Assembly (NCBI RefSeq): GCF_000179555.1
Contig: NZ_AECZ01000025.1
Span: 39 to 55,996, forward strand
DNA length: 55,958 nt
DNA from: Solidesulfovibrio fructosivorans JJ]
GTDB taxonomy: Bacteria > Desulfobacterota > Desulfovibrionia > Desulfovibrionales > Desulfovibrionaceae
Direction: 5' to 3'
Shown: piece after piece, positions 7,807-44,043 of the stretch
Position numbering within the stretch: the first letter of the stretch is position 1
Layout of the letters: each line of letters starts with the position of its first letter
Position numbers and translations under genes: made by a program
Notes under the pieces: model-generated
What the model was told of the DNA's origin: nothing
Databases searched by the model: none
What the model saw: the letters and a program-made list of their open reading frames with translations, nothing else

Positions 7807-7973
7807 GCGAGAGGGGAACCCTTTTTTCAAAAAGGGTTCCCCTCTCGCGCTCTCCCCTCCCAAAAACTCTTACCGGTTACAACTGGACAGGCGGCGATGC
7901 CTTGTAACCGTCAAGCGTCTTTGGAAAGGGGGTCCGGGGGGAGAACCTTTCTGCAAGAAAGGTTTCCCCCCGG
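7807..7973. repeat. Three-hairpin convergent-junction element, copy A
   Basis: Hairpin H1 has perfect 20-base arms (7807-7826 and 7829-7848). A central inverted repeat, CGGTTACAA with TTGTAACCG (about 7873-7910), follows, then hairpin H2 (7934-7952 with 7956-7973) preceded by GGGGGTCCGGGGGG. The same H1-centre-H2 arrangement occurs inverted at 37896-38060. Both copies lie between converging genes, so a bidirectional terminator role is likely. H2 overlaps the last codons of the minus-strand glycosyltransferase. Confidence 0.85.
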
Positions 7974-9182
7974 CTCTGCGCCCGCGCGGCGCAGGCCTTG
8001 GCGAAAACAGGCCAGGCGTTCGGAAATGACGGTCAGGCCGGTAAAAGGGAAAACCGCCATGGCCGCCTTGTAGGGCTCCGGCGCGCCCAGAAGCCGGGTG
8101 AGCTTCTCGCGCAGGGTCTCGGGCGAGAGGCTGTCCCAGGGCAGGTATTCGAGCAGTCCGCGGGCGCTTAGGGCCTCGGCCCGGATGCGCTGCTCCAGGC
8201 GCGGCACCTCCCGGGGCACGACCAGGGACGGCTTGCCCTGGCACAATATCTCGCAGGTGGTGTTGTAGCCGCCCATGGTCACGACCACTTCGGCCAGGCC
8301 GATCAGCGTCTCCATGCGGCGGTAGAAATGGTAGAACCGGGCTCCCAGCCGCCCGGCCCGCTTGGCCACGTTTTCGCGCTCCGGGCGCGGCATGAAGGGG
8401 CCGGTCACGAAGATCACCCGGTGGGCCGGGGCGTTGCCGGCTTCGAGCATCGCCAGATAGGCGTCCATGAGGGGGAAGCCGTCCCCGCCGCCGCCCGTCG
8501 TGACCACCACCAGCCGGTCGCGGCTGGAAAGCCGCTCCTCGCGCCGGGTGCGGGCCATGGCCTGGCTGGTCGGCACATGGCGCGGGATGTAGCCGGTAAA
8601 GACCATCTTGCGGCTGATGCTTTCCGGGATGGCGTACTCGGCGATGGGGTCGTAGAGTTCCTGGTCCCCGTAGACCCAGATTTCCGAATAATACTGGTCG
8701 AGCACCTCGTAGACGCCCTTCTCGCGCCACTCCCGGGTGGTGGAGACGGCGTCGTCCATGATGTCGCGAAGCCCGAGGATGGTGCGCGTGCGGGGCATGC
8801 AGCGCTTGAGCCACTTGAGCGTCGGCATCACCTCGCGCCGCAGCCCCATGGGGGCCTTGTCCACGATGAAAAGATGGGGCTGAAAGGCCTTGGCCGTGGC
8901 CACGATGATGTTGCGCCGGATGTTTAAGGCATGGCGGGCGTTGATCTTGATCGAAAGAGGCAGGTATTCCTCGTTGGTCTTTTTGATCATGCCCGGGATG
9001 CGCACGAAGTCCACGCCTTCGGGCGTCTCGTAGCGGCCGGCCAGGGGCGAACCGGTGAGGATCAGGATGTTGACCCCGCGCTGGCGCAGGTGCTCGGCGA
9101 TGGCCATGGTTCGCCGCAGATGCCCCAGACCGTAGGTGTCGTGGGAATACATCAGGATGTTGTAGGTGGTGGGGGAAGCCAT
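7911..9182 (-). CDS. MurG-like (GT28-type) glycosyltransferase
   Basis: 423 residues with a two-domain GT-B fold. The N-terminal ILMYSHDTYGLGHLRRTMAI is a nucleotide-fold start with the glycine-rich GLGH motif of MurG and UGT-type enzymes. The C-terminal half has VVTTGGGGDGF and GGYNTTCEILCQGKPSLVVPR, matching the donor-sugar site of GT28 proteins (GGxNTxxE). No signal peptide or membrane segment is evident, so a cytoplasmic or membrane-peripheral role in a surface glycan is inferred. It begins 7 bases after the sigma-54 activator gene on the same strand. About the last 24 residues are encoded inside repeat copy A, giving a tail that does not look like part of the fold. Confidence 0.85.
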   Translation of the reverse strand: MASPTTYNILMYSHDTYGLGHLRRTMAIAEHLRQRGVNILILTGSPLAGRYETPEGVDFVRIPGMIKKTNEEYLPLSIKINARHALNIRRNIIVATAKAFQPHLFIVDKAPMGLRREVMPTLKWLKRCMPRTRTILGLRDIMDDAVSTTREWREKGVYEVLDQYYSEIWVYGDQELYDPIAEYAIPESISRKMVFTGYIPRHVPTSQAMARTRREERLSSRDRLVVVTTGGGGDGFPLMDAYLAMLEAGNAPAHRVIFVTGPFMPRPERENVAKRAGRLGARFYHFYRRMETLIGLAEVVVTMGGYNTTCEILCQGKPSLVVPREVPRLEQRIRAEALSARGLLEYLPWDSLSPETLREKLTRLLGAPEPYKAAMAVFPFTGLTVISERLACFRQGLRRAGAEPGGNLSCRKVLPPDPLSKDA

Positions 9183-9189
9183 CGGGACG

Positions 9190-10683
9190 TCAGGGGACTT
9201 CGATGCCGAGCTTGCGGTATTCGTTCAACTTGTTGCGCAAAGTGCGCACGGAGATGCCGAGCAGTTGGGCGGCCTGGGTACGGTTGCCCTCGGTGCGGTC
9301 CAGGCTTTTGATGATCATGTGGCGTTCCATGACATCGAGGGGCATTACCTCGCCCGCGCCGGCGGCCGGGGTCTGTTCGAAAAGGCGGGCCGCTTCGACG
9401 AATCCGTCGGCCCCGGCGGCCGCTTCCTCGCCTTCCGGCGCGGCGGGGGCGCTTTCGGCGGCGCTTGCGGGCGCTTCCTCGAAGTCGTCGCCGGCCTCTT
9501 CCTGCCAGCCTTCGCCGTCGATCAGGAAATGGGACTTGCGGATGGGGCCCGCACCGGCCAACAGCACGGCCCGCTCCATGAGATTTTGCAGCTCGCGCAC
9601 GTTGCCCGGCCAGTCATAGGCGAGCAGCCATTCCTTGGCGTCGGCGGAGAAGGCCAAGGGCGGCAGGTCGTAGGACTTGCGGAACTTGTCCACGAAATAG
9701 GCGGCCAGCCTGGGCACGTCCTGGCCGCGTTCGCGCAGGGGCGGAAGCTTCAGCGGAATGACGTTCAGGCGATAATAGAGGTCCTGGCGAAACTTCCCTT
9801 CGGCCACGGCGTCTTCCATGCGCCGGTTGGTGGTGGCCAGAACACGCACGTCCACATGCACCGTCTCGGTGCCGCCGACGCGGTCGAACTCGCTTTCCTG
9901 GAGCACGCGCAGGAGCTTGGCTTGCAGCCCCAGGTCCATTTCGGAAATTTCGTCGAGGAGCAGCGAGCCGCCCGAGGCCAGCTCGAATTTGCCGAGCTTG
10001 CGGGCGATGGCACCGGTAAAGGCGCCTTTTTCGTGGCCGAACAGCTCGGATTCGAGCAGATGCTCGGGCAGCGCGGCGCAGTTGATGGCGATGAAAGGCC
10101 CCTCGGCCCGGTCGGAGGAGGCGTGCAGGTAGCGGGCGAACATCTCCTTGCCGGTGCCGGATTCGCCGGAGATGAGCACCGTGGCCTTGGACCGGGCCAC
10201 CTGCCGGGCCAGGGCCAGGACGCGGCGGATGGCCGGGTGTTCGCCGATGATGGCAAAGCCCTTGCCGGACGGCTGGGACGCGGAGGCATGGCGGGTCGCC
10301 GCCGGTTCGACGGGGGCGGGTTCCGGCGCGCTTCGGCCCGGCATGACGGCCTGGATTTTTTCCCAGGTCAGCGGCTCGAGCCAGTAATCCCTGGCCCCGA
10401 GCTCCAGGCAGCGCGCGGCTTCGGCGGCGGTCCCCCGGTCGGTGAAGACGATGACCGGCGGAAAGGCGTCCTCCTTCTGGCCCGCGGCAAGCAGGGCCTC
10501 GGCGGTGTAGACGCCTATCTTGGCTTGGGAAAAAATCAGGCCGGGCGGTTGCTTGCGAATGGAAGCCAGAGCGGCGGCCAGGGAATCGGCGATGCCTGCG
10601 GCAATGCCCGCTTCCTTGAAAAACGGGAAAAATTGGGTCACCGCCTGGGCCGGGGCGACAAAAAGTATCGTCTTTTCCGCCAT
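9190..10683 (-). CDS. Sigma-54-dependent activator with pseudo-receiver domain
   Basis: 497 residues, NtrC-like order: receiver-like domain (1-115), linker, AAA+ domain (about 145-380), acidic Ala-rich linker (395-440) and Fis-type helix-turn-helix (about 450-490, [21 protein letters not shown]). The AAA+ domain has Walker A GESGTGKE (173-180), the sigma-54-contact loop GAFTGA (220-225), Walker B LLLDEI (241-246) and the arginine-finger region. The receiver lacks the acidic pocket (APAQ at 10-13), the phospho-acceptor Asp (FSQAK at 51-55) and the conserved Lys (WLEPLT), so phosphorylation control is unlikely. A TTGAAA-17-TAATAG promoter-like pair lies directly upstream (10719-10691 on the minus strand). 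It sits between two glycosyltransferase genes and may control surface-polysaccharide genes. Confidence 0.92.
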
Positions 10684-10761
10684 CGGCGACCTATTAGCCC
10701 GAAGTCAAACGGTTTTCAATCAATTCGGGAACAATTCCCCCCAATCGTCGCAAAGCCGGGC

Positions 10762-11928
10762 TCAGGCCAGCCCGCATTCCTGCAAAAGCCCGGTGAGGAC
10801 CTTGTCGCTGTCGAAATAGTCGCCGGCGATTTCCCGGGCCGCCCTGCCCGCCCGGACCGGGTCGGCCTCGACCGTCCGAAGCGCCTCGGCGGCGGCATCC
10901 GGCCCTTCGAACGGGAAAAGCCCCTCCCCGACCGGCAGATAGTCGCCAAAGCCCGTGTCCTCCACCACCGCCGGCCGCCCTGCCGCCAGATACGTGGCCG
11001 TGCGGTCGGAAAACCAGCCGCTTTTGAGCACCACGTTCTGGTCCTTGGCGATGGTGAATTCGCCTCGCGAGTTCCGGATGTAGTCGCGGTAGATATCGGG
11101 ATCGCGCGAGACGTCCAGGGCGTCGCGCACGATCCAGCCGGCGTTGGCATAGCGCCAGGCGTCGTCGCACATACCGCCCATGGCCATGCCGAGCGGAATG
11201 TCGCGCAGCGTGGTCGGCAAATCGAGGATGGCCTCGTATTTCACGTTCTTGCGCCAGGAGAGCTTGCGCCCGGCGATCTCCACGTCCCGGTCCTTGGCCT
11301 CCCAGGTGCCGATGGTGGTGTAGCTGTCGCCAGCCCCCTCCCCCACCGGCCAGTCGTCGAGGATCACCGGCGGCAGGAGCGGCTTCCAGTCCACGCCCGA
11401 AAGCGGCACTTCCGTCCGGCCGGTGGGCAGGTTGTAGCCGTAGGTGAAGCAGACGTCGTGGGCGGCATAGTAGTCGCGGGTCCAAGGGTCACGCTCCACC
11501 TTGACCTGGGTGAAGACCGGGTCGGTGTCGATGACGGCCTTGACCGGGGCCTGGAAGTACTCTTCCTTGAAGGGTGCGATGCCCGAGATGTTGAGGAAAA
11601 AGTCGGCTTCGCGCAAATGCCGGTCCAGGGTGGCCCGGTCCATGCCGTAGAGCTTGTCCTCGATCTCGCTGACATAGGCCCAGCAGCCGGCCAGACCAGC
11701 CCGGCCGAACATCCGCTCCACGGTGGCCCGGCCGCGCACGGACTCGCACACCGGATAGCCGAGCACCGGATCGAAGGGGTAGGCCCAGTTGGACGTGTCT
11801 TCGAGGAAAACCACCTCGTGGCCGAGGCGGCGCAGACCGGAAAGGAAATGCAGCATCATCCACAACTGGCCGCCAAGGGGGAATCCGACGGCGAAACCGG
11901 CGACCAGAATGCGCAGGGGGCGTTTCAA
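10762..11928 (-). CDS. Glycosyltransferase, group 1-like
   Basis: About 388 residues. The N-terminus, RPLRILVAGFAVGFPLGGQLWMMLHFLSGL, looks like the first Rossmann strand and loop of a GT-B enzyme. The C-terminal WFSDRTATYLAAGRPAVVEDTGFGDYLP resembles the donor-binding region of group 1 transferases (R-x-x-E/A-A-x-x-x-G-x-P). I chose a TTG start at 11928 because AAGGA sits 7 bases upstream and it follows the deacetylase stop without overlap. An in-frame ATG at 11976 would add 16 residues and overlap that gene by 34 bases. It is probably a surface-glycan enzyme, judging from its deacetylase, glycosyltransferase and activator neighbours. Acceptor and donor are unknown. Confidence 0.78.
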   Translation of the reverse strand: MKRPLRILVAGFAVGFPLGGQLWMMLHFLSGLRRLGHEVVFLEDTSNWAYPFDPVLGYPVCESVRGRATVERMFGRAGLAGCWAYVSEIEDKLYGMDRATLDRHLREADFFLNISGIAPFKEEYFQAPVKAVIDTDPVFTQVKVERDPWTRDYYAAHDVCFTYGYNLPTGRTEVPLSGVDWKPLLPPVILDDWPVGEGAGDSYTTIGTWEAKDRDVEIAGRKLSWRKNVKYEAILDLPTTLRDIPLGMAMGGMCDDAWRYANAGWIVRDALDVSRDPDIYRDYIRNSRGEFTIAKDQNVVLKSGWFSDRTATYLAAGRPAVVEDTGFGDYLPVGEGLFPFEGPDAAAEALRTVEADPVRAGRAAREIAGDYFDSDKVLTGLLQECGLA

Positions 11929-11942
11929 CGGCGCGTCCTTTT

Positions 11943-12941: not shown

Positions 12942-13140
12942 GGCAGGTCCAAGCGGTGGGAAAGCCGCAAAACGGTGAAGTCGGGCATACCTAACCCAAA
13001 AAGCCCAAAAGTCAATGCGCCCGCCGGCCGCGCCCGCGCCCCCCAGCCTCCCGGCGCTTTGACGCCCGGGCAAAAACTGGTATGTGGCGCTTGCCGCCTG
13101 GAGCACGTCCGCCGGCGGTCCCTTTGTCAACGGAGTCCGC

Positions 13141-13599
13141 ATGCGTACACAATTGTCATCTTCCTGCGCCCTATGTTGCCTGGCCATGCTCCTGGCCGCC
13201 GCGCCCCCGGTCCTCGGCGCGTCCAAACACTTTCGCGCCTCCTACGAGCACTTCAACGAATACGCCACCAAGGCCGCCGACCTCTACTTCAAGGCTTCCA
13301 AAGCCGGCGAGAAGAATATCCTGTCCCACCTGACCGCCGTTTCCGCCATCTACGCCGAAAAGGCCTACGTGATCCTGAATCTGGCCGACGTGCTCGAGCA
13401 TATGGCGGCCAAGCGCGACCGGGCCTACGTCACGGCCCGCCTCGACGACGTGCGCAAGGTGATCCTGGCCGGCATTCCCCAGGACATCAAGCTCCTGGCC
13501 GATCTGGTGGAAAATCAGGAAAACGAGCAGGTGCGATCCCTCGGCACCCAGGTGGTCAACGAGATGCGGGTGTTCGAGCGCAATACCGAAAATCAGTGA
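13141..13599 (+). CDS. Small exported helical protein of unknown function
   Basis: 152 residues. The signal peptide MRTQLSSSCALCCLAMLLAA runs to a probable cleavage after VLGA, so the mature protein is about 126 residues. The rest is predicted almost wholly helical (HFNEYATKAADLYFKASKAGEKNILSH... split across the fold), rich in Ala, Leu, Lys and Glu, and lacks cysteines. GGAG upstream supports the ATG at 13141 over an in-frame ATG at 13084. It is divergent from the deacetylase operon across about 200 bases in which I could not find a convincing promoter, and its 3' end overlaps the convergent O-antigen-ligase-like gene by 7 bases. I do not recognise a family. Confidence 0.7.
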   Translation: MRTQLSSSCALCCLAMLLAAAPPVLGASKHFRASYEHFNEYATKAADLYFKASKAGEKNILSHLTAVSAIYAEKAYVILNLADVLEHMAAKRDRAYVTARLDDVRKVILAGIPQDIKLLADLVENQENEQVRSLGTQVVNEMRVFERNTENQ

Positions 13600-15608: not shown

Positions 15609-15620
15609 GCGCCGGCCCCC

Positions 15621-17315: not shown

Positions 17316-17325
17316 AAAGCCCCCG

Positions 17326-22321: not shown

Positions 22322-22741
22322 ATGCAGTCGCAGACACCGTTCACTCCCCTGGCCACGCCGTTTTCCCCCTGGGAACCGGGCGCCCTGGCCTTTCTGGTCT
22401 ATTTCGTCCTGGTGCTGGCGATCCTAGGGCTCATCCTTTTCCTCTCGGGCTTTCTGGTGCGCCGCCGGCCCACCCCGGACAAGCAGCGCCCCTACGAATG
22501 CGGCATCCTGCCCACGGGCGACGCCCGGTTCCGCTATCCGGTGCCGTTTTTCCTCATGGCCGTCTTTTTCCTCATCTTCGACGTGGAAACCGCCTATATC
22601 GTGTCCTGGGCCGTGGCCTGGCCGGAACTCGGCCTTCCCGGCTACCTGCGCATGGCCGTGTTCATCGTGATCCTGGGCCTTGGCCTGGCCTACGCCTGGG
22701 TAAAGGGCGGCCTCGACTGGAACGAGGAGGAAGGCTTGTGA
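22322..22741 (+). CDS. nuoA: NADH-quinone oxidoreductase subunit A
   Basis: 139 residues with three membrane helices (about 22-45, 75-95 and 105-125), the standard NuoA layout. The conserved [32 protein letters not shown] spans the loop and helix 2, including the Cys of the quinone-cavity loop and the FDVE motif. It forms part of the membrane arm at the junction with the quinone site of complex I. GAGGA lies upstream of the ATG. The stop overlaps the GTG of nuoBCD in a GTGA junction, so the two are translationally coupled. This is the first gene of the nuo operon. Confidence 0.97.
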
Positions 22742-25110
22742 CCGGCCCCCTCGACGCCGTTTTCTCGCCCACGGATCACATCATCAACTGGGCGCGCAAG
22801 AACAGCCTCTGGCCCTTTTTCTTCGGGCTGTCCTGCTGCTTCGTGGAGGAGGCCACGGCCTGGGGGCCGCGCTACGACATCGCCCGCTACGGTTCGGAGG
22901 TCTTCCGGGGTTCGCCCCGGCAGGCCGACGTGCTCATCGTCTCGGGCACGATGTTCAAAAAGATCGCCCCGGTGGCCCTTCGGCTCTACGAACAGATGAG
23001 CGACCCCAAGTGGGTCATCTCCATGGGCTCGTGCAGCAACTCCGGCGGCATGTACGACGTCTATTCCGTGGTCCAGGGCTCGGACCAGATCCTGCCCGTG
23101 GACGTCTATATCCCGGGCTGTCCGCCCCGGCCCGAGGCGCTTTTCGACGGGCTGTTGCTGCTCCAGAAAAAAATCGCCGCCGGCGAAAAGCCTACCCGCC
23201 CCGTGCTGCACCTGCCGGGCGGCAGCGAAGGCGGCCGGCGCGACCACCTCCTCGACGGGGTGAGCAAATGCCGCGATACGCGCGGCCCCGGCTACGCCGG
23301 CATCCCCATCCGGGGCACGGCCGCGACCGAACCGCGCTTTTACGGCTCCCGGGCGGACGGCATGTGGACGCCGCCCGCGCCGCGCCTGACGCTGCGCGAC
23401 GACCAGCAAGCCGTGGCCGCGGACCTTGCCGCCGCCTTCGGCGAGGCGGTGACGCCTACGCCGGACGCCATCGACATGCCGACCTATGCCGTGGCCCCGG
23501 AGCGCATCACCGAGGTGCTGGCCCATCTTAAAAGGAATGCGCCCACCCGCTTCGAGCGTCTGGAGGACCTGACCGCCGTCGACGAGACCATGCGCCGCAC
23601 GCCGCAAGGCCACGAGGCCAGCGTGGTCTACACGCTTACCTCGCTGTCCAGCCCGGGCATGGTGCGCCTGACCTGCGCGCTCCCCACACGCGACAGCGCC
23701 ATCGCCACGGCGACGGGCGTGTGGCCGAGCGCCTCCTGGTACGAACGCGAGGCGGCCGAGATGTTCGGCCTGCGTTTTACCGGGCACCCCGACCCCAGAC
23801 GGCTGCTCACCCACCGCGACTGGGTCGGCCATCCCCTGCGCAAGGACTACGAGGGCCGGGCCACCAACATGCCGCCCTTCACCGAGGACGACTGCCGCCG
23901 CCTGGAACCGGTGGACGCCAGGGAAATCCTCGGCCCGCGCGCCGACGCCGGGGACTACCTGCTCAATTTCGGGCCGCACCACTACGCCACCCACGGCATC
24001 TTCCGCTACGTGCTGGCCATGCGCGGCGAGCGGATCAAGGCCCTCGGCATGGACATCGGCTACCACCACCGGGGCGTGGAGAAAATCGGCGAGCGCCAGA
24101 CCTGGCACCAGTTCATCCCTTACACCGACCGGGTGGACTACCTTTCGGGCGTGGCCAACAACCTGTCCTACGTCACGGCCGTGGAGACGCTTACCGGCAT
24201 CGAGGTGCCGCCGCGCGCCGCCTATGCCCGGGTCATGCTGTCGGAGCTTTTCCGCATCTCCAACCACCTCATGTACTTCGGCACGTTTCTCCAGGATCTC
24301 GGCATGATGAGCCCGATATTCTACGCCCTGCGGGAACGCGAGCTGGTCCTCGACATCATCGAGACCATCACCGGCGGCCGGCTCCATCCGTCGTGGCTGC
24401 GCATCGGGGGCATGGCGGCCGATCTGCCCGAGGGCTGGAAGGAGCAGGTCGACGCCTTCATCAAAATCTTCCCGGGCCGGGTGAAGGAATACCACGCCGG
24501 TGTGACCAAAAACCCCATCGTCAAGGCCCGCTGCCGGGGCGTGGGGACCATCAGCGCCGCCGAGGCCATCGATTGGGGCGTCACCGGCCCCAACCTGCGG
24601 GCCACGGGGGTCGCCTGGGACCGACGCAAAAAGATGCCCTACGGGGCCTACGCCGATTTCGATTTCGACGTGCCGACCCGCGACGCCGGCGACTGTTTTT
24701 CGCGCTACCTCGTGCGCATGGACGAGATGCTCGAAAGCCTGCGCATCATCAAGCAGGCGGCGGATAACATGCCGGGCGGCCGCTGGCTGGCCGCGGACGC
24801 CCGCTACAGCCTGCCCCAGAAACGCGAAGCCCTCACCGACATCGAAAGCCTGATCCACCATTTCGTCAACGTCACGCGCGGCCCAAGGCTCCCGGTCGGC
24901 CAGGCCTATGCCGCGACCGAAGCCCCGCGCGGCGAGCAGGGCTATTACGTCGTCTCCGACGGCGACTGCCACGCTTACCGCATGCGGGTGCGCACCCCGG
25001 GCTTCGCCAACATCCAGGCCATGCCGCTGCTGGCCGAGGGACTGCGGGTGGCTGATTTCGTGGCCGTGCTCGCTTCCTACGATTACATTCTGCCGGATAT
25101 CGATCGATGA
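22738..25110 (+). CDS. nuoBCD: Fused NADH-quinone oxidoreductase subunits B, C and D
   Basis: A single 790-residue frame from a GTG start preceded by GAGGAGG. Residues 1-150 are NuoB with the N2 iron-sulphur ligands Cys33, Cys34, Cys99 and Cys128 ([25 protein letters not shown]). Residues about 150-225 are a linker. Residues about 225-395 are NuoC ([26 protein letters not shown]). The rest is NuoD ([37 protein letters not shown], ending [14 protein letters not shown]). The two His of the quinone-site loop are kept, although the usual GPQHP reads GPHHY. No stop or frameshift interrupts the fusion. NuoCD fusions are common; BCD fusions are known but much rarer. A 348-base gap follows before nuoE. 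Confidence 0.96.
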
Positions 25111-25150
25111 GATATAGTGCTATGGAAATATTGCGGAAATATGGGCTGGT

Positions 25151-25233
25151 TGGCCGGCGAGGGACTGTGACGGCCGCGCGCGGCGCATATTTGAAGAATA
25201 CGCCTTCGCGTCCGCCACAGCCCCTCGCCGGCC
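25151..25233. repeat. Long imperfect inverted repeat inside the nuo operon
   Basis: An 18-base arm (25151-25168, GGCCGGCGAGGGACTGTG) pairs with 25216-25233 with one mismatch around a 47-base loop that has its own weaker pairing (GGCGCATATT with AATACGCC). Partial complementarity continues outward on both sides. It lies in the 348-base gap between nuoBCD and nuoE, which holds no supported gene. A 121-codon open frame from 25107 runs through the repeats, looks non-coding and was not called. Confidence 0.65.
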
Positions 25234-25342
25234 CTGGCCACATGCAGCATATCCGGAAGCCATTCCCGCCTCAGAGCACCAGGGAATCCGCCGCAACATT
25301 ATTTTTGCAACATCCTCACATTTCATCCATATTTCTCCATTC

Positions 25343-25440
25343 GGGGGGTCCGGGGGGCCCGTGGCCTCCCGGCGGGGTAGTCCAGAAGGGGCAGCGCCCC
25401 TTCTGGCGGAGAGGTCCAGGAGAGGCGGAGCCTCTCCTGG
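25343..25440 (-). repeat. G-rich block plus two tandem hairpins upstream of nuoE
   Basis: Contains a GGGGGGTCCGGGGGGC block (25343-25358), a CCTCCCGGCGGGG block, then two hairpins: CCAGAAGGGGC-AGC-GCCCCTTCTGG (25382-25406) and CCAGGAGAGGC-GGA-GCCTCTCCTGG (25416-25440). It is a member of the element family found after dnaE (reading from 290), after the sulfurylase fusion (43591 on) and before 44054. Unlike those copies it is oriented against the surrounding genes. The second hairpin ends only 3 bases before the GGAGG ribosome binding site of nuoE. Confidence 0.75.
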
Positions 25441-25458
25441 CCGCCGGAGGCGCACAGC

Positions 25459-25956
25459 ATGGCATTGCCTGACGCACTGGTCGCGGACCTCAAACGCATG
25501 ATCGCCCAGGCGGAGCATCCCCGCGAGGCGGCGGTGGATGTGATGTACGCCTTGCAGCACCACTACGGGTATCTGTGCGACGAGGCCGTGCACTACGCCT
25601 CGAAGCTGCTCGGCATGACCACGCTGGAGCTGGAGTCCCTGGCCACCTTTTACGACTACCTCTACCGACGGCCGGTGGGGCACTACGTCATCCACGTGTG
25701 CGACTCTGTGGTGTGCTGGATGTTCCACCAGGATTCCATCTTCGATTATCTGTGCCGCACGCTCGGCGTGCCGCCCGGCGGCACGACCGAGGACGGCATG
25801 TTCACGGTGCTGCCTTCGGCCTGCATCGGCAACTGTCATAATGCGCCGACGATGCTCATAAACGGCCGCTTCTACAACAAGCTCACCCCCGAGCGCATTG
25901 ATGCGGTTCTTAGGGAACTGCGCGAGACCACCGAGGAGCCGGTTCGATGCAAGTAG
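25459..25956 (+). CDS. nuoE: NADH-quinone oxidoreductase subunit E
   Basis: 165 residues, thioredoxin-like [2Fe-2S] subunit of the NADH-input module. Ligands are Cys81 and Cys86 (CDSVVC) and Cys122 and Cys126 (CIGNC), the canonical C-x4-C and C-x3-C pair of cluster N1a. The N-terminal helical segment (AAVDVMYALQHHYGYLCDEAVHYASKLLGMTTLELESLATFY is the family-specific region) is complete. GGAGG lies 10 bases before the ATG. It overlaps nuoF by 10 bases. A large hairpin directly upstream may affect its expression relative to nuoA and nuoBCD. Confidence 0.96.
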   Translation: MALPDALVADLKRMIAQAEHPREAAVDVMYALQHHYGYLCDEAVHYASKLLGMTTLELESLATFYDYLYRRPVGHYVIHVCDSVVCWMFHQDSIFDYLCRTLGVPPGGTTEDGMFTVLPSACIGNCHNAPTMLINGRFYNKLTPERIDAVLRELRETTEEPVRCK

Positions 25957-31210: not shown

Positions 31211-31219
31211 GATGAAATC

Positions 31220-33917: not shown

Positions 33918-33929
33918 GGAAACGCAGCC

Positions 33930-35468: not shown

Positions 35469-35486
35469 GACAGAAAAGGACTCCCC

Positions 35487-36887: not shown

Positions 36888-36953
36888 CGGAGAAGCGCGC
36901 CCGGGGCGGCAGGACGCCACCCCGGTCCCCCTTAACGGGAAAAGGAAGCATAC

Positions 36954-37874
36954 ATGCACGCCCGCCTGCTCGATCTGCTCGTCTGTCCGGTCTGCCTGCC
37001 CGAGGAACATCCGCTGCAACTCCAAGACCACCGTCACTCCGGCGATGATATCACCTCCGGGACCCTCGTCTGCCCCGACTGCGGCGCGGCCTATGCCATC
37101 ACCGACGGGCTGGCCGACCTGGTTCCGCCCGAAAAGGCCGTGCCCACCGCCCAGGCGCGTTACGACACGGGCAGGCTGTCCGCCTCCTACCTGTGGAGCC
37201 ACTACGCCGACCTGTGGGAGGACCGCGAAGCCACGGACGCCTACACGCGCTGGCTGGAAATGGCCGGAGACTGGGAGGGGCCGGGCCTGGACGCCGGCTG
37301 CGCCGTGGGACGCTTCACCTTCGAGATGGCCGCGAAAAGCGGCTTCGCCGTGGGCGTCGACCTGTCGCGGCCCTTCGTTACCCTGGCCCGGCGGATCGCC
37401 CGGAAAAAGGAAATGGCCTTCACCGCCCCGAGACAGGGGCATCTGACCACGCGGTTCGAGTTCTCCCTGCCCGCGCGGCTGCAACAGGGCATTGCGGAAT
37501 TCGTGCGGGCCGACGTCGCGCGCCTGCCGTTTCGCGCCGAGAGTTTCGGTTTTGTCGCGTCGCTCAATGTCGTGGACAAGCTGCCGCGCCCGATGCTCCA
37601 CCTTGTCGAGGCCAGACGCGTGTGCGCGCGAAAGGCTACCGTGCTCCTGGCCGACCCCTTCTCCTGGTCCGAAAACGTGGCTAGGCCGGAGGATTGGCTC
37701 GGCGGCACGGCGGAATCCGGCGACAGCGCGGCCGTCGTCGCCACCATGCTCGGCGCCGGCCCGGGCTGGGAGGCAGACATCGCGGGTTCGGCCTGGTGGA
37801 CCATCCGCGACCACGTCAACCGCTACGAACGCATCCGCAGCGAAGTCATCGTCGCCCACCGCAGTGCGGAGTAG
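36954..37874 (+). CDS. SAM-dependent methyltransferase with N-terminal zinc ribbon
   Basis: 306 residues. An N-terminal Trm112-like zinc ribbon has Cys11, Cys14, Cys40 and Cys43 (CPVC, CPDCG), followed by the degenerate YAITDGLADLVPP linker seen in this family. The class I methyltransferase domain has motif I GLDAGCAVGR (111-120), an acidic motif II VGVDLSRPFV, and ADVARLPF then VASLNVVDKL as motifs III and IV. A start-proximal AAAGGAAG supports the ATG. The substrate is unknown. It follows nuoN by 66 bases, and members are often annotated only as methyltransferase. There is no sign that it modifies complex I apart from proximity. Confidence 0.85.
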   Translation: MHARLLDLLVCPVCLPEEHPLQLQDHRHSGDDITSGTLVCPDCGAAYAITDGLADLVPPEKAVPTAQARYDTGRLSASYLWSHYADLWEDREATDAYTRWLEMAGDWEGPGLDAGCAVGRFTFEMAAKSGFAVGVDLSRPFVTLARRIARKKEMAFTAPRQGHLTTRFEFSLPARLQQGIAEFVRADVARLPFRAESFGFVASLNVVDKLPRPMLHLVEARRVCARKATVLLADPFSWSENVARPEDWLGGTAESGDSAAVVATMLGAGPGWEADIAGSAWWTIRDHVNRYERIRSEVIVAHRSAE

Positions 37875-37895
37875 GGAAAATTTTCCGAAACGAGC

Positions 37896-38060
37896 CGGGG
37901 GGAAACTTTTCTGAAGAAAAGTTTCCCCCCCGGACCCCCTTTCAAAAGACTTTTAACGGTTACAACGTGTTGTCGTCACCAAAGTTCTAACTGTTAAAAG
38001 TTTTGGGGAGGGGAGAGCGCGAGAGGGGAACCCTTTTTTCAAAAAGGGTTCCCCTCTCGC
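37896..38060. repeat. Three-hairpin convergent-junction element, copy B (inverted)
   Basis: Inverted relative to copy A: H2 first (37896-37913 with 37916-37934), then CCCCCTTTCAAAAG, a central inverted repeat (TTTTAACGGTTACAAC against GTTCTAACTGTTAAAAG, about 37950-38000), then H1 with perfect 20-base arms (38019-38038 and 38041-38060). H1 is base-for-base identical to H1 of copy A, even in loop orientation, although the element as a whole is flipped. It lies between the convergent methyltransferase and LOG-like genes. Confidence 0.85.
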
Positions 38061-38073
38061 ACTTTCTTCATCT

Positions 38074-40344
38074 TCACGCCTCCTCCCCAAGCGCTTCGTC
38101 GATGCAGGGGGGGATGGGCATGCCGGCCCGGTGGAGGTTATCCCGGGCCTGTCGCACCTTTTCGAGCGGGATTTCGCGTTGGCGCCAGTAGGCGGCGGGA
38201 TCGTCCAGGAAGGCGGCGATGACGTCATAGCCCTGTTCGTAGCTCGTCACCTCGTGGCAACAGTTGACGATCCAGCGCGGCCCGAGCGGCCCGAGATCGT
38301 GGCCGCCGCCGGAGAGATCGCTCGAAAGGGTGCGGAACTGGTTGAGGGTCTGCCGCCAGAACGGCTCGCCCCCGGGCCCGAGTCCCACCGGGTCGACGAA
38401 GATGTACGGCGCGGGCAGGCACTGCCCGATCTTCATGAAGGTGAGCGCCATGTTGACCTCGTAGCTTGTGCCGTAGCCGCCGAGGTTGAAGACCTTGAAC
38501 ACCGAACGCCGGTCCAGGATATCCTGGCGCGTATTCATGGCCAGGTTGGTGAACTGGGCCACGGCTTCGGGCTCGAAATTGGTTTTCTGCCCGATCTCCT
38601 CGGCGTTGATCCCGACGCCCATGCGGTAGATGCCGAGGGCGGCGGCGGCGTTGTCCACGGTCTGCATGACCCCGGGCCCGGAGCCGTGGGCCACGGCGAA
38701 CCCTTCGCCCAGGCGCGGATGGTCCCGCAGCTTGCGCAGGAATTCCGTGATCGGCGCTTCGAGCACCGGCCCCAGCACGTCGCACGACGAGCCGAACATG
38801 GCCATGGTGGTGTGCACGCGCGGCAGGCGTTCCTTGCCTTGGCGCGTCACCCACAGTCCCCGGAAAAATTCCCGCACCTGGGCGTGGCCGTTGTACTCGA
38901 GCAGCAGGTAAAAGCGCATGCCCTCGTTTTCCAGACGCACCAGCTCCTCGTAGAGCGTCTGGTCCATGCGGAAATGCGGCAGCCGGCAATGCTCGCCGAC
39001 CGCGCAGCCCATGCCCCGGGCCGCCACCACGCCGATGCCGTTTCGCTTGAGCACCCGCAACGTGTCCACCGGCGGCAGGGCCTCGGCCACGAACACCTTG
39101 GACAGGTCCTGCTCGCCGCCGACGTAGCGCAGCCCCTCCAAAAACGGCCGCAGCCGCTTGGGGATCTCCTCGCCCACGAGCACCCCTTCCGGAATGTTGC
39201 CCCGGGCGTACTCGTAGACCAGCCGCCACTGGAATTCCTGGAGCCAGACGCCCTCCTCCTGTTCCCAGGGAATGGCGAGCATCCTGCCGGGCATGAATAT
39301 CCGGCCGTAGCTGCCGCCTTCGTCCGGCCCGGCCGTGATCTCGTCCAAAAGTCCCCGGGCCACTGCCGGGTCGAAAACGCCGGTCAGGTCCGCGAAATCC
39401 ACCCCGGCCGCCAGCACGTTTCTGGCCCGGCCGGGCGGCAGCACGCGCTCGACCAGCCCGGCCAGCCGCACGTCCGCCGGATAGAGCCGCAGTCGCACGG
39501 CCAGCCCTTCGGTGGGAACGGCCTCCTCGCCGCCGTTGTAGAGTTCCACCTGGCGCGGCGTGGTGATCCCCGTGGTGCGCACGCCGTCGAGCAGCCGCGA
39601 GGCCAGATGGAACACGTCCGGCGACGACGTCTGGCGCTCGATCAGGGCCACGAAGGGGCCGAGGGCTATGTGCATGGCCCCGACCAGAAACTCCTTGGCG
39701 GCCAGGGTCGGCGGCAGCCCGGCTGGGGACAGGCTTTGGAAGATGGTCAGGCCGTGCTTGCCCTTGACCAGCATCTCGGCGAAATTGCGCCCCACGCCGA
39801 GCAGGCGCGAGGACAGCACGTAGCGCATGTTGAGCAGCGGGATTTCCATCACGCCGTCCGCGTCGATACGGTGGCGCTCGGGCAGCAGCAACCAGCCTCG
39901 ATCGAGCGCCTCTTCGATCTCGTCCCGCCCGAGCGCCGGCCCGCGCGGGATGAACAGGCGGCCGAAATCCACGCCCCCGGCGTCGCACAGGCAGCGCAGG
40001 TCGGCCAGGGATTCGGCCAGAACGGCGTTGAGCGCCGTCAGCGCCACCCGCGCGTCCACGGTCCGTTGGCTGTCCGAAACTTCCGGCGGTTCGCCGGTCA
40101 GGCGCACATCGAGGCCGATACGTGAATGGCCGCTACGGCCGCTTATTTCCATGAACCGCTGCAACGGCAGGGAATCGCGGGCGGCCCGATCGCGCAAATC
40201 GCGCACCAGCCCGCGCAAGGCGTCGCTGGTATGGGAAAAGCGCATGACGCCAAGCGCCTGGGGCGCGGCCAGTTCCTCGTTGAAATGAACCTCGCCGACG
40301 TTGACGAGTTGACCGTCTCCGGTAACGAGCGGGGATGCGAGCAT
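38074..40344 (-). CDS. LOG-like Rossmann-fold protein with large N-terminal extension
   Basis: 756 residues from the ATG at 40344, preceded by GGAGG; the longer open frame upstream is not coding-like. The C-terminal third contains HGSGPGVMQTVDNAAAALGIYRMGVGIN (split around 553-580) and LGGYGTSYE (621-629), matching the nucleotide-binding pattern of LOG/lysine-decarboxylase-like proteins, where PGGxGTxxE is usual; here the Pro is Leu. A VHTTMAMFGSS strand precedes it, as in that family. The first 400 residues (VNVGEVHFNEELAAPQALGVMRFSHTSD at the start is typical of none I know) are unassigned. LOG proteins hydrolyse nucleotide 5'-monophosphates at the N-glycosidic bond; activity here is inferred only. 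Divergent from the HDOD gene by 200 bases. Confidence 0.75.
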   Translation of the reverse strand: MLASPLVTGDGQLVNVGEVHFNEELAAPQALGVMRFSHTSDALRGLVRDLRDRAARDSLPLQRFMEISGRSGHSRIGLDVRLTGEPPEVSDSQRTVDARVALTALNAVLAESLADLRCLCDAGGVDFGRLFIPRGPALGRDEIEEALDRGWLLLPERHRIDADGVMEIPLLNMRYVLSSRLLGVGRNFAEMLVKGKHGLTIFQSLSPAGLPPTLAAKEFLVGAMHIALGPFVALIERQTSSPDVFHLASRLLDGVRTTGITTPRQVELYNGGEEAVPTEGLAVRLRLYPADVRLAGLVERVLPPGRARNVLAAGVDFADLTGVFDPAVARGLLDEITAGPDEGGSYGRIFMPGRMLAIPWEQEEGVWLQEFQWRLVYEYARGNIPEGVLVGEEIPKRLRPFLEGLRYVGGEQDLSKVFVAEALPPVDTLRVLKRNGIGVVAARGMGCAVGEHCRLPHFRMDQTLYEELVRLENEGMRFYLLLEYNGHAQVREFFRGLWVTRQGKERLPRVHTTMAMFGSSCDVLGPVLEAPITEFLRKLRDHPRLGEGFAVAHGSGPGVMQTVDNAAAALGIYRMGVGINAEEIGQKTNFEPEAVAQFTNLAMNTRQDILDRRSVFKVFNLGGYGTSYEVNMALTFMKIGQCLPAPYIFVDPVGLGPGGEPFWRQTLNQFRTLSSDLSGGGHDLGPLGPRWIVNCCHEVTSYEQGYDVIAAFLDDPAAYWRQREIPLEKVRQARDNLHRAGMPIPPCIDEALGEEA

Positions 40345-40544
40345 GATGCCTCCGAAATATGGCGTGGTTGCGGCGGAGGGAATACGGACCACCCTTATAG
40401 GCCAAGCGCCTTCGTGGGGGAACCCCCGGGCCTCCGCTTGCCCATCCGGCGCGACGTTGGTAATGAAAGACAAAGAACATCGGCCGGTTCGGCCACAAAC
40501 GTTCACGACCCAGGCCGGCGACGCGCCCGGCCAGGTGACGGCCC

Positions 40545-41765
40545 ATGCCAGTATTTTCCCTTGCCGATCTGCAGCCGGGCATGGTCCTGGCGGCGGACGC
40601 CGAAAGCCCCAACGGAAATCATCGCCTTGCCGGCGGCACCTCGCTGACGGAAACGCATCTCCGCCTGCTGCGCGGCTGGCATCTGCGTGAAATCGAGGTG
40701 GAGGACTCGCAACAGGCCATGGACGCCGGGACGGATGCCGTCGCGGACACCGCGCAAACCGTCCTGGCCCGATTCGCCCATCTGCCCGGAGACAATCCGT
40801 TCGTGGCCGAGTTGCGCCGCCAGGCCATGGCCCGGGCGGACACCTTCGTTTCGCCCAAGGCCTGCCTACCGACGCGCCGCAAACTCGACGCACCGGCCGG
40901 CGTGCCCGCACCGGAAAAAATCCTCACCGGCGATCCGGTCCTCGTCTCCCTGCCCGAAGTCTTCATGCGCATCCGGGAGGTCTTAAGCGACCCCGCCTCA
41001 ACCATCGAAGAGGCGGCGGCGGTCATCGGCAAGGACCCGAGCCTGACGGCCAAACTCTTAAAGCTCGTCAACAGCGCTTTTTACGCCCGCACCCTGCGCG
41101 TCTCCGGCTCCCTGCCGCCGGCCTCCGTGGACACGCTGACCAGGGCGGTCATGCTGCTCGGGCTCAACCAGCTCTCCACCCTGGCCATGGGCGTTTCCGT
41201 GCTGCCCCTTTTTCGAGACATCCCGCCGGACTGCGTGGACCTGCGCCAGTTCTGGCAACACAGCGTCGGCGTGGGGCTCCTGGCCAAGATCCTGTCCGCC
41301 CGCCTGGGCGACCCGAGCCCGGAACGCTATTTCGTGGCCGGGCTGCTCCACGACATCGGCCGGCTGGTGCTCTACAAGCGCATTCCCGACGTCTCGGGCG
41401 AGGCCTTGGCCCGGGCCGCCGAATCGGGCCGGCATCTGGTCGCGGTGGAACGCGAAACCTTCGGCTTCGACCACGCGGAACTCGGCGGCATGCTGTTGCG
41501 CAAATGGCGCTTCCCCGAAAGCCTGGAGCAGACGGTCTGGCGGCACCATGACCCCATGGTCGCGGACCTGCCCCTGGAGCCGGCCATCATCAACGTGGCC
41601 GACATGGTCGCCGTGGCCACCCTGCCCGGCGGCAGCGGCGAACGCCTCGTTCCCGAGTTCATTCCCGAGGCCTGGCGGCTGGCCGCCCTCACGCCGTCCG
41701 ACCTGCCAGAGATCGTGGCCACGGCCGAAAGCCACCTCGAGGTCGTATGCGCCATGTTCGCCTGA
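40545..41765 (+). CDS. HDOD-domain signalling protein
   Basis: 406 residues. A small N-terminal domain (1-50, MPVFSLADLQPGMVLAADAE) resembles the segment that often precedes HD-GYP and HDOD domains. A linker follows, then an HDOD domain from about 130 to 330 (SLPEVFMRIREVLSDP, DPSLTAKLLKLVNSAFY, VMLLGLNQLSTLAMGVSV, FWQHSVGVGLLAKIL). Residues 264-273, VAGLLHDIGR, keep the His-Asp pair that many HDOD proteins have lost, but the other metal ligands of active HD enzymes are not all evident. Such proteins generally act as non-catalytic regulators in signalling or stress responses. Followed by 128 bases and the sulfurylase/kinase fusion. Confidence 0.88.
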   Translation: MPVFSLADLQPGMVLAADAESPNGNHRLAGGTSLTETHLRLLRGWHLREIEVEDSQQAMDAGTDAVADTAQTVLARFAHLPGDNPFVAELRRQAMARADTFVSPKACLPTRRKLDAPAGVPAPEKILTGDPVLVSLPEVFMRIREVLSDPASTIEEAAAVIGKDPSLTAKLLKLVNSAFYARTLRVSGSLPPASVDTLTRAVMLLGLNQLSTLAMGVSVLPLFRDIPPDCVDLRQFWQHSVGVGLLAKILSARLGDPSPERYFVAGLLHDIGRLVLYKRIPDVSGEALARAAESGRHLVAVERETFGFDHAELGGMLLRKWRFPESLEQTVWRHHDPMVADLPLEPAIINVADMVAVATLPGGSGERLVPEFIPEAWRLAALTPSDLPEIVATAESHLEVVCAMFA

Positions 41766-41893
41766 GCGCCGCCTGCCGCCGAAAACGACGAGAAAGTCCT
41801 GGACATGTGCCAAGTTCCGACATATTTGCAAAGCATCTTTCCGTCCCACCGTATTCCTCCCTGCCTCTCCACCATAGCACCAGCGAGAACCGT

Positions 41894-43585
41894 ATGAACA
41901 ATCACGCGCAGAATCTCCTCGTGCATTTCCGGCATGCCGAAGAAATCAAGGCGGAATCCCTCTCCTACAAATCCGTTAACCTCTCCCCGCGCCAACTGTT
42001 CGATCTGGAGCTTCTGCTCTCGCGAGCCTACTACCCGCTGACGGGATACCTCGGCCGGGACGATTTCGAGGCCGTGCTAGGCTCCATGCGCCTCGCCGAC
42101 GGAACGCCCTGGCCCATGCCGGTGAGCCTCGACGTGCCCGCCCCCCTCGGTGAAAGCCTCACTCCCGGGGACAAGCTGGCCCTGCGCGACCAGGAAGGCT
42201 TCATGCTGGCCGCCATGACCGTCGCCGAAGTCTGGCCGGCCGATCCCGTGCGCGAGGCCCGGGCCATCTTCGATGTCCAGGACATCGCCTCCCATCCGGG
42301 CGCCCGCGCCCATGTCCGACAGACAGCCCCCTTCCGCGTGAGCGGCGCGGTCGTCGGCCTGTCGCTGCCGCCCCATGTCGATTTTCCCGAGATGCGCCGC
42401 GGCCCGGCCGAAGTCCAGGCCGTTCTGCAGCAACGCGGCTGGCGCAAGGTGCTCGGCTGCCAGAGCGACGCGCTGCTCCACTGTCGGCACAAGGCAATGC
42501 TGCGCCAGGCCGCCACGGACGCCGGAGCAAGCGTCCTGCTGCTGCGAGCGGTGGGCGACGCCATGGCCGAGGGCGCGGGCCACTTCGCCGGCATCCGCTG
42601 CGCCCGCATCTTCGCCGACGCCTTTCCCAAAAATCTGCTGCTGTTAAACCTCCTGCCCCTGCCCCTGCGCACGGCCGGCCCCCGGCAGGCCCTGTTCGAG
42701 GCGCTGGTCCAGAAAAACCACGGCTGCACCCACTCCCTCGTCGGAGGCCGGCACGCCGACCCCATGCCGCCCGACGCCCCGCCGCTCTATCCCGTCGGAC
42801 AGGCCCAACGCTTGGTGGCCGACTTCGCCGACGAAACCGGCATCGCCATGGTCCCCGAAACGCCCATGGACTACGTCGAGGAGAAAGCCCAATACATGCC
42901 GCGCGCCCAGGTCGGGCCGGGCATGACCGTCAAACACATCGACGCCGCGGAATTCCGCCGCCGCCTGGAATTCGACCTGGATATCCCGGACTGGTTCACC
43001 CTGCCCGAGGTGGTCGCCGAACTGCGCGCCGTCTTTCCCCCACGGTCCAGACAAGGCTTCACGCTCTTCATGACCGGCCTCTCCGGAGCCGGCAAATCCA
43101 CCCTGGCCAAAATCCTCTACGTCAAGTTCATGGAACTGCGCACCCGGCCCGTCACCCTCCTTGACGGCGACATCGTGCGCCGCCACCTCTCCAGCGAACT
43201 GACCTTCACCAAGGAACACCGCAACCTCAACATCGCCCGCATCGGCTTCGTGGCCAGCGAAATCACCAAAAACGGCGGCATCGCCATCTGCGCCCCCATC
43301 GCCCCCTACGCAAGCTCGCGCAACGAAGCCCGCAGCCTCGTCGCGCCCCACGGCGGATTTGTCGAAATCCACATGGCCACCCCGCTTGCCACCTGCGAAC
43401 AGCGCGACCGCAAAGGCCTCTACGCCAAGGCCCGGGCCGGCATCGTCAAAGGCGTCACCGGCATCGACGACCCCTACGAAATCCCCGAACACCCGGAAAT
43501 CACCCTCGACACCACAAACCTCGCCCCCGGCGAAGCCGCCCAGGAAGTGCTGCTCTACCTCGAACGCGAAGGCTACCTCGCGTAA
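41894..43585 (+). CDS. ATP-sulfurylase-like/APS kinase fusion, degenerate sulfurylase half
   Basis: 563 residues. Residues 1-375 align with ATP sulfurylase (SYKSVNLSPRQLFDLELLLSRAYYPLTGYL, family-like middle). The catalytic QxRNPxHxxH motif is here QSDALLHCRH (190-199), keeping only Gln and both His, and the GRDHAG motif reads GGRHADP (284-290). Substrate-binding Arg and Asn are therefore missing. Residues 385-563 are a full APS kinase: P-loop GLSGAGKS (395-402), LDGDIVRRHLSSELTF, RNLNIARIGFVA and APIAPYASSRNEAR. Likely activity is phosphorylation of APS to PAPS, with the first half structural or regulatory. The ATG at 41894 is preferred; the frame is open upstream to 41747. The canonical sulfurylase for sulfate reduction must lie elsewhere. 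Confidence 0.88.
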   Translation: MNNHAQNLLVHFRHAEEIKAESLSYKSVNLSPRQLFDLELLLSRAYYPLTGYLGRDDFEAVLGSMRLADGTPWPMPVSLDVPAPLGESLTPGDKLALRDQEGFMLAAMTVAEVWPADPVREARAIFDVQDIASHPGARAHVRQTAPFRVSGAVVGLSLPPHVDFPEMRRGPAEVQAVLQQRGWRKVLGCQSDALLHCRHKAMLRQAATDAGASVLLLRAVGDAMAEGAGHFAGIRCARIFADAFPKNLLLLNLLPLPLRTAGPRQALFEALVQKNHGCTHSLVGGRHADPMPPDAPPLYPVGQAQRLVADFADETGIAMVPETPMDYVEEKAQYMPRAQVGPGMTVKHIDAAEFRRRLEFDLDIPDWFTLPEVVAELRAVFPPRSRQGFTLFMTGLSGAGKSTLAKILYVKFMELRTRPVTLLDGDIVRRHLSSELTFTKEHRNLNIARIGFVASEITKNGGIAICAPIAPYASSRNEARSLVAPHGGFVEIHMATPLATCEQRDRKGLYAKARAGIVKGVTGIDDPYEIPEHPEITLDTTNLAPGEAAQEVLLYLEREGYLA

Positions 43586-43590
43586 GAGGG

Positions 43591-43835
43591 CTGGGGCTCT
43601 GCCCCAGACCCCGCCGGGAGGCCATGGGCCCCCCGGGCCCCCCTTCCGGTGGGCTTTGGTTGGGCGGGGGAGGCGTTGGCTGGCGGAAGGACGGAGAGTA
43701 AGGAGAAGATGGCGGCGGAATTTGCCGGGACGCTGCCGCCGCTTCGCGGCAGGCTCGTCCCGGGCAAATTCCGTCGCCACCGCGCCGGTCGCCCCTTTGG
43801 GGCGACATTCGGAAAAAAGCTCTTTTTCTTGAAAT
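43591..43835 (+). repeat. Dispersed palindromic element, copy 2 (after the APS kinase fusion)
   Basis: Starts 5 bases after the stop codon with hairpin CTGGGGC-TCT-GCCCCAG (43591-43607), then CCGCCGGGAGG and GGGCCCCCCGGGCCCCCC, then the large palindrome with arms 43711-43732 and 43756-43778 (one extra base and one substitution in the right arm). The remainder, to about 43835, matches copy 1 through GGTCGCCCCT and AAAGCTCTT. It is the inverted copy of 61-300 and has the same polarity with respect to its upstream gene. No gene is supported between here and 44054; 43836-43976 shows only small hairpins (GCGGCGCTTCGCCGC and GGCGCGAAAGCGCC). Confidence 0.82.
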
Positions 43836-43980
43836 GCGGCGCTTCGCCGCTGGCGTGGTTGTTGCCGCTATCGCGTCCGGCGTCGAGGCGCGAAAGCGCC
43901 GCGTGCCGCCGGGCCGATTGCGGCAACAAATACCCGTTCGTCCGCCAACCCGCGAAGTCCCGCGCAATCAAAGCGTAAAG

Positions 43981-44043
43981 GGGGGTCCGGGGGGCATCAA
44001 GCCCCCCGGCGGAGGGGTGCAGGGGAGGCAGAGCCTCCCCTGC
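43981..44043 (-). repeat. 3'-end hairpin element after the minus-strand 172-residue gene
   Basis: Read on the minus strand from the stop codon at 44054: hairpin GCAGGGGAGGC-TCT-GCCTCCCCTGC (44043-44019), then CCGGGGGGC-TTGAT-GCCCCCCGG, then ACCCCCCTTT. It is the clearest example of the two-hairpin form of this family. Confidence 0.75.

Follow-up and report, generated by a model that had tools for sequence, protein, structure and literature searches.

The window analysed here is a 55,958-nucleotide stretch of contig NZ_AECZ01000025.1 from Solidesulfovibrio fructosivorans, and the subject of this analysis is a set of strong hairpins that lie at the 3′ ends of its genes. The host genome, of 4.67 Mb, falls within Solidesulfovibrio; the GC content of the window is 66.7%, and its dnaE is 89% identical, in the best segment, to that of S. 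alcoholivorans (L009). A first-pass annotation had described six hairpins as copies of one dispersed family, lying after dnaE, a glycosyltransferase gene, a methyltransferase gene, a sulfurylase fusion gene and the gene at 44054, with one more near 25 kb. All six are present near the positions it gave. Their assignment to a single family is rejected, however: the hairpins at 7973 and 37895 are of one type, referred to as class A, and the other four are of another, class B.

Class A is a two-sided module of about 175 bp. It starts with a hairpin, H1, whose stem of 17–18 bp has G/C pairs outside and A/T pairs inside, and continues with a G-poor tail, typically ACCCCCTTTCCAAAGACTTTT, a free core, and a second tail, typically GCTCTCCCCTCCCAAAAACTTTT on the other strand. 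It ends with H3, a different hairpin of 19 bp (GCGAGAGGGG...CCCCTCTCGC) that runs in the opposite direction. That is, H1 faces the gene on one side of the module and H3 the gene on the other. The window hairpins 7934–7973 and 37895–37933 are the H1 ends, i.e., the left halves, of two such modules, and the element is much larger than the first-pass annotation had claimed, with the second hairpin, H3, at 7807–7848 and 38019–38060.

In the first of these modules, H1 is on the minus strand (7934–7973, −30.6 kcal/mol), and a covariance model of H1 plus its tail, R1, matches at 7903–7973 with 75.8 bits. The tails and the variable core, delimited by alignment, occupy 7849–7933, with the H1 tail on the minus strand and the H3 tail on the plus strand; in the sister species, the tails of this segment are conserved and the core is free. 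H3 (19 bp, plus strand) begins 25 nt past the stop codon of a LysE-type gene (7194–7781, +). H1, for its part, lies within the last codons of the same-strand glycosyltransferase open reading frame (ORF) at 7911–9182 (−), the stop codon of which comes from the tail of the element; thus, the element supplies the end of this gene. The sister species is identical for the hairpin and for the bases of this stop codon. In the second module, H1 (37895–37933, +) lies 20 nt past the stop codon of the methyltransferase gene 36954–37874 and within an R1 match of 92.7 bits (37895–37964), the tails and core extend over 37934–38018, also by alignment, and H3 (38019–38060, −) is 13 nt past the stop codon of the convergent gene 38074–40344 (−).

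Gene contexts were assessed in a sample consisting of the window and 60 further stretches of its genome, or 1,243,092 of 4,673,595 bases (27%). The genes were called with a home-made caller (916 genes, 76% coding), which misses some, so that a few gene contexts may be wrong. R1 matches the 1.243-Mb sample 226 times at E ≤ 0.01; merging the best 150 of these 226 matches, with the better strand kept for each, yields 106 hairpins, among which H3 and related types are included. All but three are intergenic with neighbouring genes; two that fall in genes, no more than 60 nt from the stop codon, and one at a contig end were not counted. Directly after a same-strand stop codon are 80 of the 103 hairpins, at a median distance of 18.5 nt (middle half, 13–26 nt), while 22 of the other 23 face a stop codon on the far side and one lies between two gene starts. 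Such a scan, recording strand and distance to the stop codon, had been proposed in the first-pass annotation, and the strand bias it reveals demonstrates that the fixed polarity noted there holds in the sample. The type of gap matters as well. Of the gaps measuring 30–1500 bp, class A-like hairpins were recorded in 27 of the 83 between convergent genes, 47 of the 387 between tandem genes and one of the 102 between divergent genes. When strong hairpins are counted whatever their family, a convergent gap contains 1.05 on average, a tandem gap 0.50 (+) or 0.35 (−) and a divergent gap 0.11. In a looser pattern test, 26 of 32 H1, 25 of 36 H3 and 15 of 19 class B terminal hairpins pointed in the same direction, as did 13 of 19 hairpins with 3-nt loops (p = 0.17).

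The tails downstream of the 106 hairpins contain 10% G and 35% C, compared with 30% G and 31% C in 354 control 3′ flanks. A U-tract is not seen in them: none of the 106 has five or more T in its first eight bases, where the mean is 2.2.

To assess conservation we used the sister species (G011), the closest of 13 congeners by the sole protein matched in all of them (92%), of which 400 kb were examined. Of the class A modules in the sample, 51 have a profile score above 60; a comparison was possible for 21, while 28 have no flank in the stretches covered and two differ in orientation. Class A is kept in the sister species at 20 of the 21 comparable sites, and one site is empty. In the reverse direction, 19 of 28 modules of the sister species are kept, one is absent and eight are not comparable. 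The stems were compared at 19 of the 20 kept sites, the one with an insertion sequence (IS) being dropped. In the 11 usable pairs among these 19, differences amount to 6.4% in H1, 6.6% in its tail, 7.4% in the H3 tail and 2.8% in H3; the outer gene ends differ by 7.0% and 9.6%, and the core by 19.2%, with a further 24% deleted. These comparisons demonstrate that the module is conserved and, judged by the alignments, the hairpin with its tail is the constrained unit of class A, and the core is free.

The orthologous stems also reveal how base pairs change. In H1, 225 of 237 pairs are unchanged, 11 are compensated double changes and one is broken, where 0.56 doubles would be expected. H3 is more static (325 of 331 pairs unchanged, no compensated double, one broken double). 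Of the 345 pairs of the central stem of class A, H2, 285 are unchanged, 36 are singly broken, 13 singly changed yet paired, 8 doubly broken and 3 doubly changed and paired. With 36 of 60 changed pairs being single breaks, and only three paired doubles, H2 was rejected as a kept structure; the placement of ACCCCC at the base of this central stem, which appears in single folds, is likewise unsupported by the count. A broader count over 55 gaps left aside 10 hairpins in which fewer than six pairs could be aligned or more than one third were broken. In class A it covers 553 pairs, with 10 doubles to Watson-Crick pairs (0.41 doubles expected), one single change to G-U, six single breaks and one double break. 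Hairpins with ACC tails (170 pairs) show seven doubles to Watson-Crick and one to G-U, against 1.51 expected, alongside three singles to G-U, nine single breaks and two double breaks. There was no double change in 50 pairs of U-tract hairpins. A covariation count on the set A1 is weakened by shifted rows, and the orthologue comparison is the better test; with this proviso, 6 pairs changed on both sides versus 4.2 in shuffles (reached in 36 of 500), further pair types numbered 13 versus 12.7 (315 of 500), 39 cells were altered on both sides versus 12.6 (0 of 500), and 89.7% of cells were paired versus 86.3% (0 of 500).

Intermediates with G-U pairs are scarce. Single changes to G-U are nearly missing in class A, accounting for one of 19 changed pairs. 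The G-U share is 1.1% in H1 and 1.8% in H3 (65 and 68 strings, chosen by patterns that fix the outer stem), compared with 8.3% in 38 U-tract hairpins of the same genome, a control set so loosely selected, with doubtful members present, that this last figure is only a rough yardstick. In our reading of the alignments, several orthologous H1 stems seem to differ by a switch to a stem version found elsewhere in these genomes. In 6 of the 19 orthologous pairs, the sister species has a paralogue at least as close as the orthologue. At several sites where this genome has the long core, the orthologue in the sister species (L177–L193) is a short-core version of class A, which is a sign of copying between repeats. 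The pattern of stem changes is explained equally well by copying between repeats or template correction and by selection on both strands.

The distribution of these elements is lineage-specific. The genome of 4.67 Mb contains 104 copies of the motif CCCCCCGGACCCCC and 11 of the reversed pattern, and all 14 genomes of the genus have the motif (43–205 copies; control, 0–11). Among 149 genomes of the family it is present in 57, nine of which are within the genus; outside the genus there are mostly none or a few copies, the high counts being 99 (G018), 51 (G080), 35 (G098) and 29 (G044). The arm of H3 is much more restricted. Its pattern matches this genome 155 times, or about twice for each hairpin, which corresponds to some 80 modules, and the sister species 159 times; the 12 other congeners have 0–1 matches, and the control has none. 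R1 matches at E ≤ 0.001 number at least 150 each in this genome (G000) and G011, and 16–95 in the other congeners. At the convergent gene pair of the 37.9-kb module the gap is 199 nt, as opposed to 18, 48 or 63 nt, or overlapping genes, in four congeners, and no module was seen between the pair in those four. From the abundance of H3 arms in only two species we conclude that class A spread recently, in the ancestor of the two, and then mostly stayed in place. Copies of the motif also stand at the very ends of several contigs of the draft genome (e.g., G000 C2:7, C34:14 and C45:1), and the start of the window (1–40) falls within what is the second half of such a hairpin in G011.

At the end of hisG this genome has a U-tract terminator and the sister species has a class A module instead, with no U-tract hairpin seen in the displayed stretch of G011 after the gene. 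That module faces hisG on one side and, on the other, a YoeB/YefM-type toxin-antitoxin pair (G011 L183:1956–2469, −), which adjoins it. This swap of a terminator for a module is one case, and it may be linked to insertion of the toxin-antitoxin pair. The empty site in the sister species, also one case, shows no clear target duplication. In the G011 orthologue of the 37.9-kb module, an IS110-family transposase gene (PF02371, PF01548; L194:18292–19566, −) lies inside the module, between the ACCCCC tail and AAAAGACTTTT.

The four class B places of the window consist of GC hairpins with 3-nt loops followed by a terminal hairpin with a C-rich tail; the terminal hairpins are at 270–247, 25372–25350, 43614–43636 and 44009–43987, and a long central palindrome, repeated in the genome, is present at three of the four. 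The differing yet paired stems around 3-nt loops are as the first-pass annotation had described them, with two at the 25-kb site, and in a census of perfect stems of this kind ACC follows 18 of 26 class B-type loops. After dnaE, on the minus strand, the hairpin CCGGGC-TCT-GCCCGG (276–290) precedes the terminal hairpin 247–270 and its ACCCCCC tail (together 240–270), with a 68-nt central palindrome beyond at 111–178 (−64.9 kcal/mol as RNA, conserved in the sister species, where the gap after dnaE is of mixed A-type and B). At 25 kb, all on the minus strand, are CCAGGAGAGGC-TCC-GCCTCTCCTGG (25416–25440), CCAGAAGGGGC-GCT-GCCCCTTCTGG (25382–25406) and the terminal hairpin 25350–25372 with its tail (25343–25372), the last being absent in the sister species. 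The first of these stems reads CCGGAAGGGGC/GCCCCTTCCGG in G011, i.e., three compensated changes. The hairpin at 25372 is antisense between two plus-strand genes, a Nuo-type gene (22738–25110) and a gene for a 2Fe-2S thioredoxin-like protein (25459–25956). About 147 bp that include this terminal hairpin, within window positions 25110–25459 between the two respiratory-complex-type genes, are absent in G011.

Downstream of the ATP sulfurylase/APS kinase gene (41894–43585), the hairpin CTGGGGC-TCT-GCCCCAG (43591–43607, +) lies 5 nt past the stop codon, followed by the terminal hairpin 43614–43636 with its GCCCCCC tail (43614–43643, +), a central palindrome at 43711–43778 of the same module as 111–178, and a second central palindrome at 43859–43929. 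On the far side, facing the gene 44054–44572 (−), are a terminal hairpin (43987–44009) with an ACCCCCC tail (43980–44009, −) and GCAGGGGAGGC-TCT-GCCTCCCCTGC (44019–44043, −), which is 10 nt past the stop at 44054. The central 68-nt palindromes pair nearly throughout on both strands; their inner part (111–178 and 43711–43778) occurs in either orientation among different copies. Five of the six hairpins of the first-pass annotation had been placed after a stop codon of the same polarity. Four are (stops at 334, 37874, 43585 and 44054); the hairpin at 7973 is instead inside the last codons of its gene, and that at 25372 is antisense. A third type of hairpin, starting with CCTCCGGCGGCC, occurs at 19 places in the sample, compared with 3 for the reversed control, 10 of them after a stop codon, 6 after a start and 3 inside called genes. 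In S. alcoholivorans this type stands at the end of dnaE, and several congeners have it close to the sulfurylase gene.

The explanation we favour, and consider moderately probable, is that these elements are mosaic palindromic repeats, akin to repetitive extragenic palindromic (REP) sequences and bacterial interspersed mosaic elements (BIMEs), that have turned into two-sided modules for transcript 3′ ends. Each unit consists of a strong hairpin just past the stop codon and, behind it, a G-poor tail of about 22–26 nt. Class A joins two different units tail to tail over a free core, so that either of a pair of converging genes has a unit facing it; a tandem gap would use one unit and leave the other pointing back. 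The transcript would end in or just past the C/A/U-rich tail through the action of Rho or a similar factor, Rho being the likely one because there is no U-tract; a rho gene is encoded in the genome. Rho-dependent terminators have unstructured RNA that is rich in C and poor in G; the tails have this base composition, and single folds pair the two class A tails with each other. The hairpin would then provide a stable, exonuclease-resistant 3′ end. Within a lineage, new types of unit would multiply by copying and take over gene ends from other units or from ordinary terminators.

Several observations weigh against this explanation. The H1 at 7973 is part of an ORF and would be melted by ribosomes translating it. 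Of the 103 hairpins, 23 do not directly follow a same-strand stop codon; among the hairpins counted, a facing partner within 260 nt exists for 12 of these 23 and is lacking for 11. The positions of the hairpins could also arise, with no function involved, if insertions elsewhere were purged. The low G content of the tails could stem from shared descent of the copies. With none of 106 tails carrying five T in its first eight bases, canonical intrinsic termination is not supported. Lastly, hairpins outside the families (287 pairs) also have 9 doubles to Watson-Crick pairs versus 2.64 expected, together with 2 doubles and 6 singles that give G-U, and 17 single and 3 double breaks. Thus, class A has the strongest excess of doubles but not the only one. 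The compensating changes from which the first-pass annotation had argued are real, between orthologous copies in two species; with G-U singles rare, stem versions switching, and doubles found outside the families, compensation alone is no proof of a role in RNA.

The best rival, which we regard as possible if rather unlikely, is that of selfish repeats with no role, non-autonomous mobile DNA that is tolerated only just past stop codons and survives only there. Conservation would then reflect a lack of removal, and the perfect stems copying between repeats or template-switch correction. The burst of class A in two species only (155 and 159 H3-arm matches versus 0–1 in 12 congeners), the 199-nt convergent gap where four module-free congeners have 18, 48, 63 nt or an overlap, the site filled here and empty in the sister species, and the 6 of 19 orthologous pairs equalled or bettered in closeness by a G011 paralogue all speak for this explanation. 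Simple copying of whole modules should, however, share the core too, whereas the hairpins and tails are constrained and the core is not, and at one gene end the module occupies the place of an ordinary terminator in the other species.

As is reported for BIMEs of E. coli, the palindromes might act in DNA, as cruciforms or as sites bound by gyrase, integration host factor (IHF)/HU or DNA polymerase I (Pol I), between genes that converge; such genes create positive supercoiling. The rarity of G-U pairs (1.1% and 1.8%, versus 8.3% in the 38 loosely defined U-tract hairpins) and the class B central palindromes of 68 nt, which pair nearly throughout on both strands, are in line with this idea, yet DNA binding requires neither a fixed short spacing to the stop codon nor sense polarity, and the class A H2 is not kept by compensation (36 singly broken and 3 paired doubles among 345); we deem it improbable. 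More doubtful still is that these are ordinary intrinsic terminators, alike through shared base composition. Their location and GC-rich hairpins would suit terminators, and the relative D. desulfuricans G20 is listed with intrinsic terminators at a large share of its gene ends (PMC1852404). However, the 0 of 106 tails with five T in the first eight bases, and the existence of sequence families with shared tails (104 versus 11, and 155 versus 0, control matches), refute such an origin for class A. The same paper describes DNA uptake signals that form terminator hairpins in Neisseria and Pasteurellaceae, and uptake signals built into terminators would be a further reading of the elements. Uptake signals are short and generally present in at least 1000 copies per genome, again according to PMC1852404, whereas the exact motif counts here are 104 and 155 and the class A unit is 175 bp long, and we find this the least credible of the explanations.

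A bolder form of the favoured explanation, which we put forward tentatively and hold to be rather improbable as a whole, is that of mobile gene-end cassettes: two-sided Rho-type 3′-end signals that spread without a REP-associated tyrosine transposase (RAYT), replace ordinary terminators at orthologous gene ends, and have their stems kept perfect by copying at the level of DNA and not by point-mutation steps through G-U. If the reading of the repeats as gene-end modules is right, the lineage would have remade a large share of its gene ends (27 of the 83 convergent gaps sampled) with a recently burst repeat family, and the origin, spread and exchange of terminators could be followed in a natural experiment. 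It would also offer matched species and sites for telling selection on RNA from copying of DNA behind compensated stem changes, for which RNA selection is the common assumption in covariation work.

Among known systems, we considered several classes of hairpin and repeat. Rfam 15 gives no match at gathering scores within the window. The word Desulfovibrio is absent from PMC3733652, PMC2267715 and PMC12306157, and none of the matches listed from the open-licence literature dealt with such repeats in Desulfovibrio or Solidesulfovibrio. Intrinsic terminators share the GC hairpin directly after the stop codon, and one orthologous gene end exchanges the two; unlike them, the elements described here have no U-tract, form repeated families with a conserved downstream tail, and were amplified in one lineage. 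Forms of intrinsic terminator that lack a U-tract are termed 'I-shaped' (GeSTer). Intergenic palindromes of the ERIC (enterobacterial repetitive intergenic consensus) and MITE (miniature inverted-repeat transposable element) types are dispersed, imperfect and 100–200 bp long, as is the class A module, which differs from them in its stop-codon polarity; no terminal inverted repeat shared between its two ends was seen, nor a clear target duplication at the one empty site.

The closest comparison is with REPs and BIMEs, as the first-pass annotation had suggested. According to PMC3733652, REPs are palindromic repeats found mainly between convergent and unidirectional genes, at convergent genes mostly less than 20 bp from the 3′ end of both; they are often paired head to head, and many of these dimers combine two different units. 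They are also known IS targets in other genera (PMC1525189). The elements in this genome are likewise palindromic, near gene 3′ ends, and between convergent or tandem genes. Like BIMEs, they are mosaics of opposed units with spacers, H1-core-H3 in class A and a pair around central palindromes in class B. Unlike REPs, they have a long conserved tail, no link to a RAYT and two unrelated hairpins in one fixed module, and their stems are 17–19 bp, versus 5–13 in REPs (PMC3733652). The REP tag (GTAG, CTAC or CGTC) is found within 9 nt of the foot in none of the 106 hairpins, and GACG, the complement of CGTC, in five. In REPs of the GTAG type, the RAYT gene is flanked by the repeats. Genes for RAYT-type Y1 transposases (PF01797) are present in 8 of the 14 genomes of the genus and not in G004, which has the highest motif count (205). 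At the five Y1 loci examined, neither a class A match (E up to 1) nor an ACCCC hairpin was present, and one stray 3-nt-loop pattern occurs in L130. A RAYT-driven REP is thus rejected on the marks tested, i.e., the GTAG/CGTC tag and the RAYT gene, and the earlier comparison proves apt for the layout and not for these marks. With a REP-like layout and without tag or RAYT, the elements are REP/BIME-like by layout and lie outside the GTAG and CGTC families.

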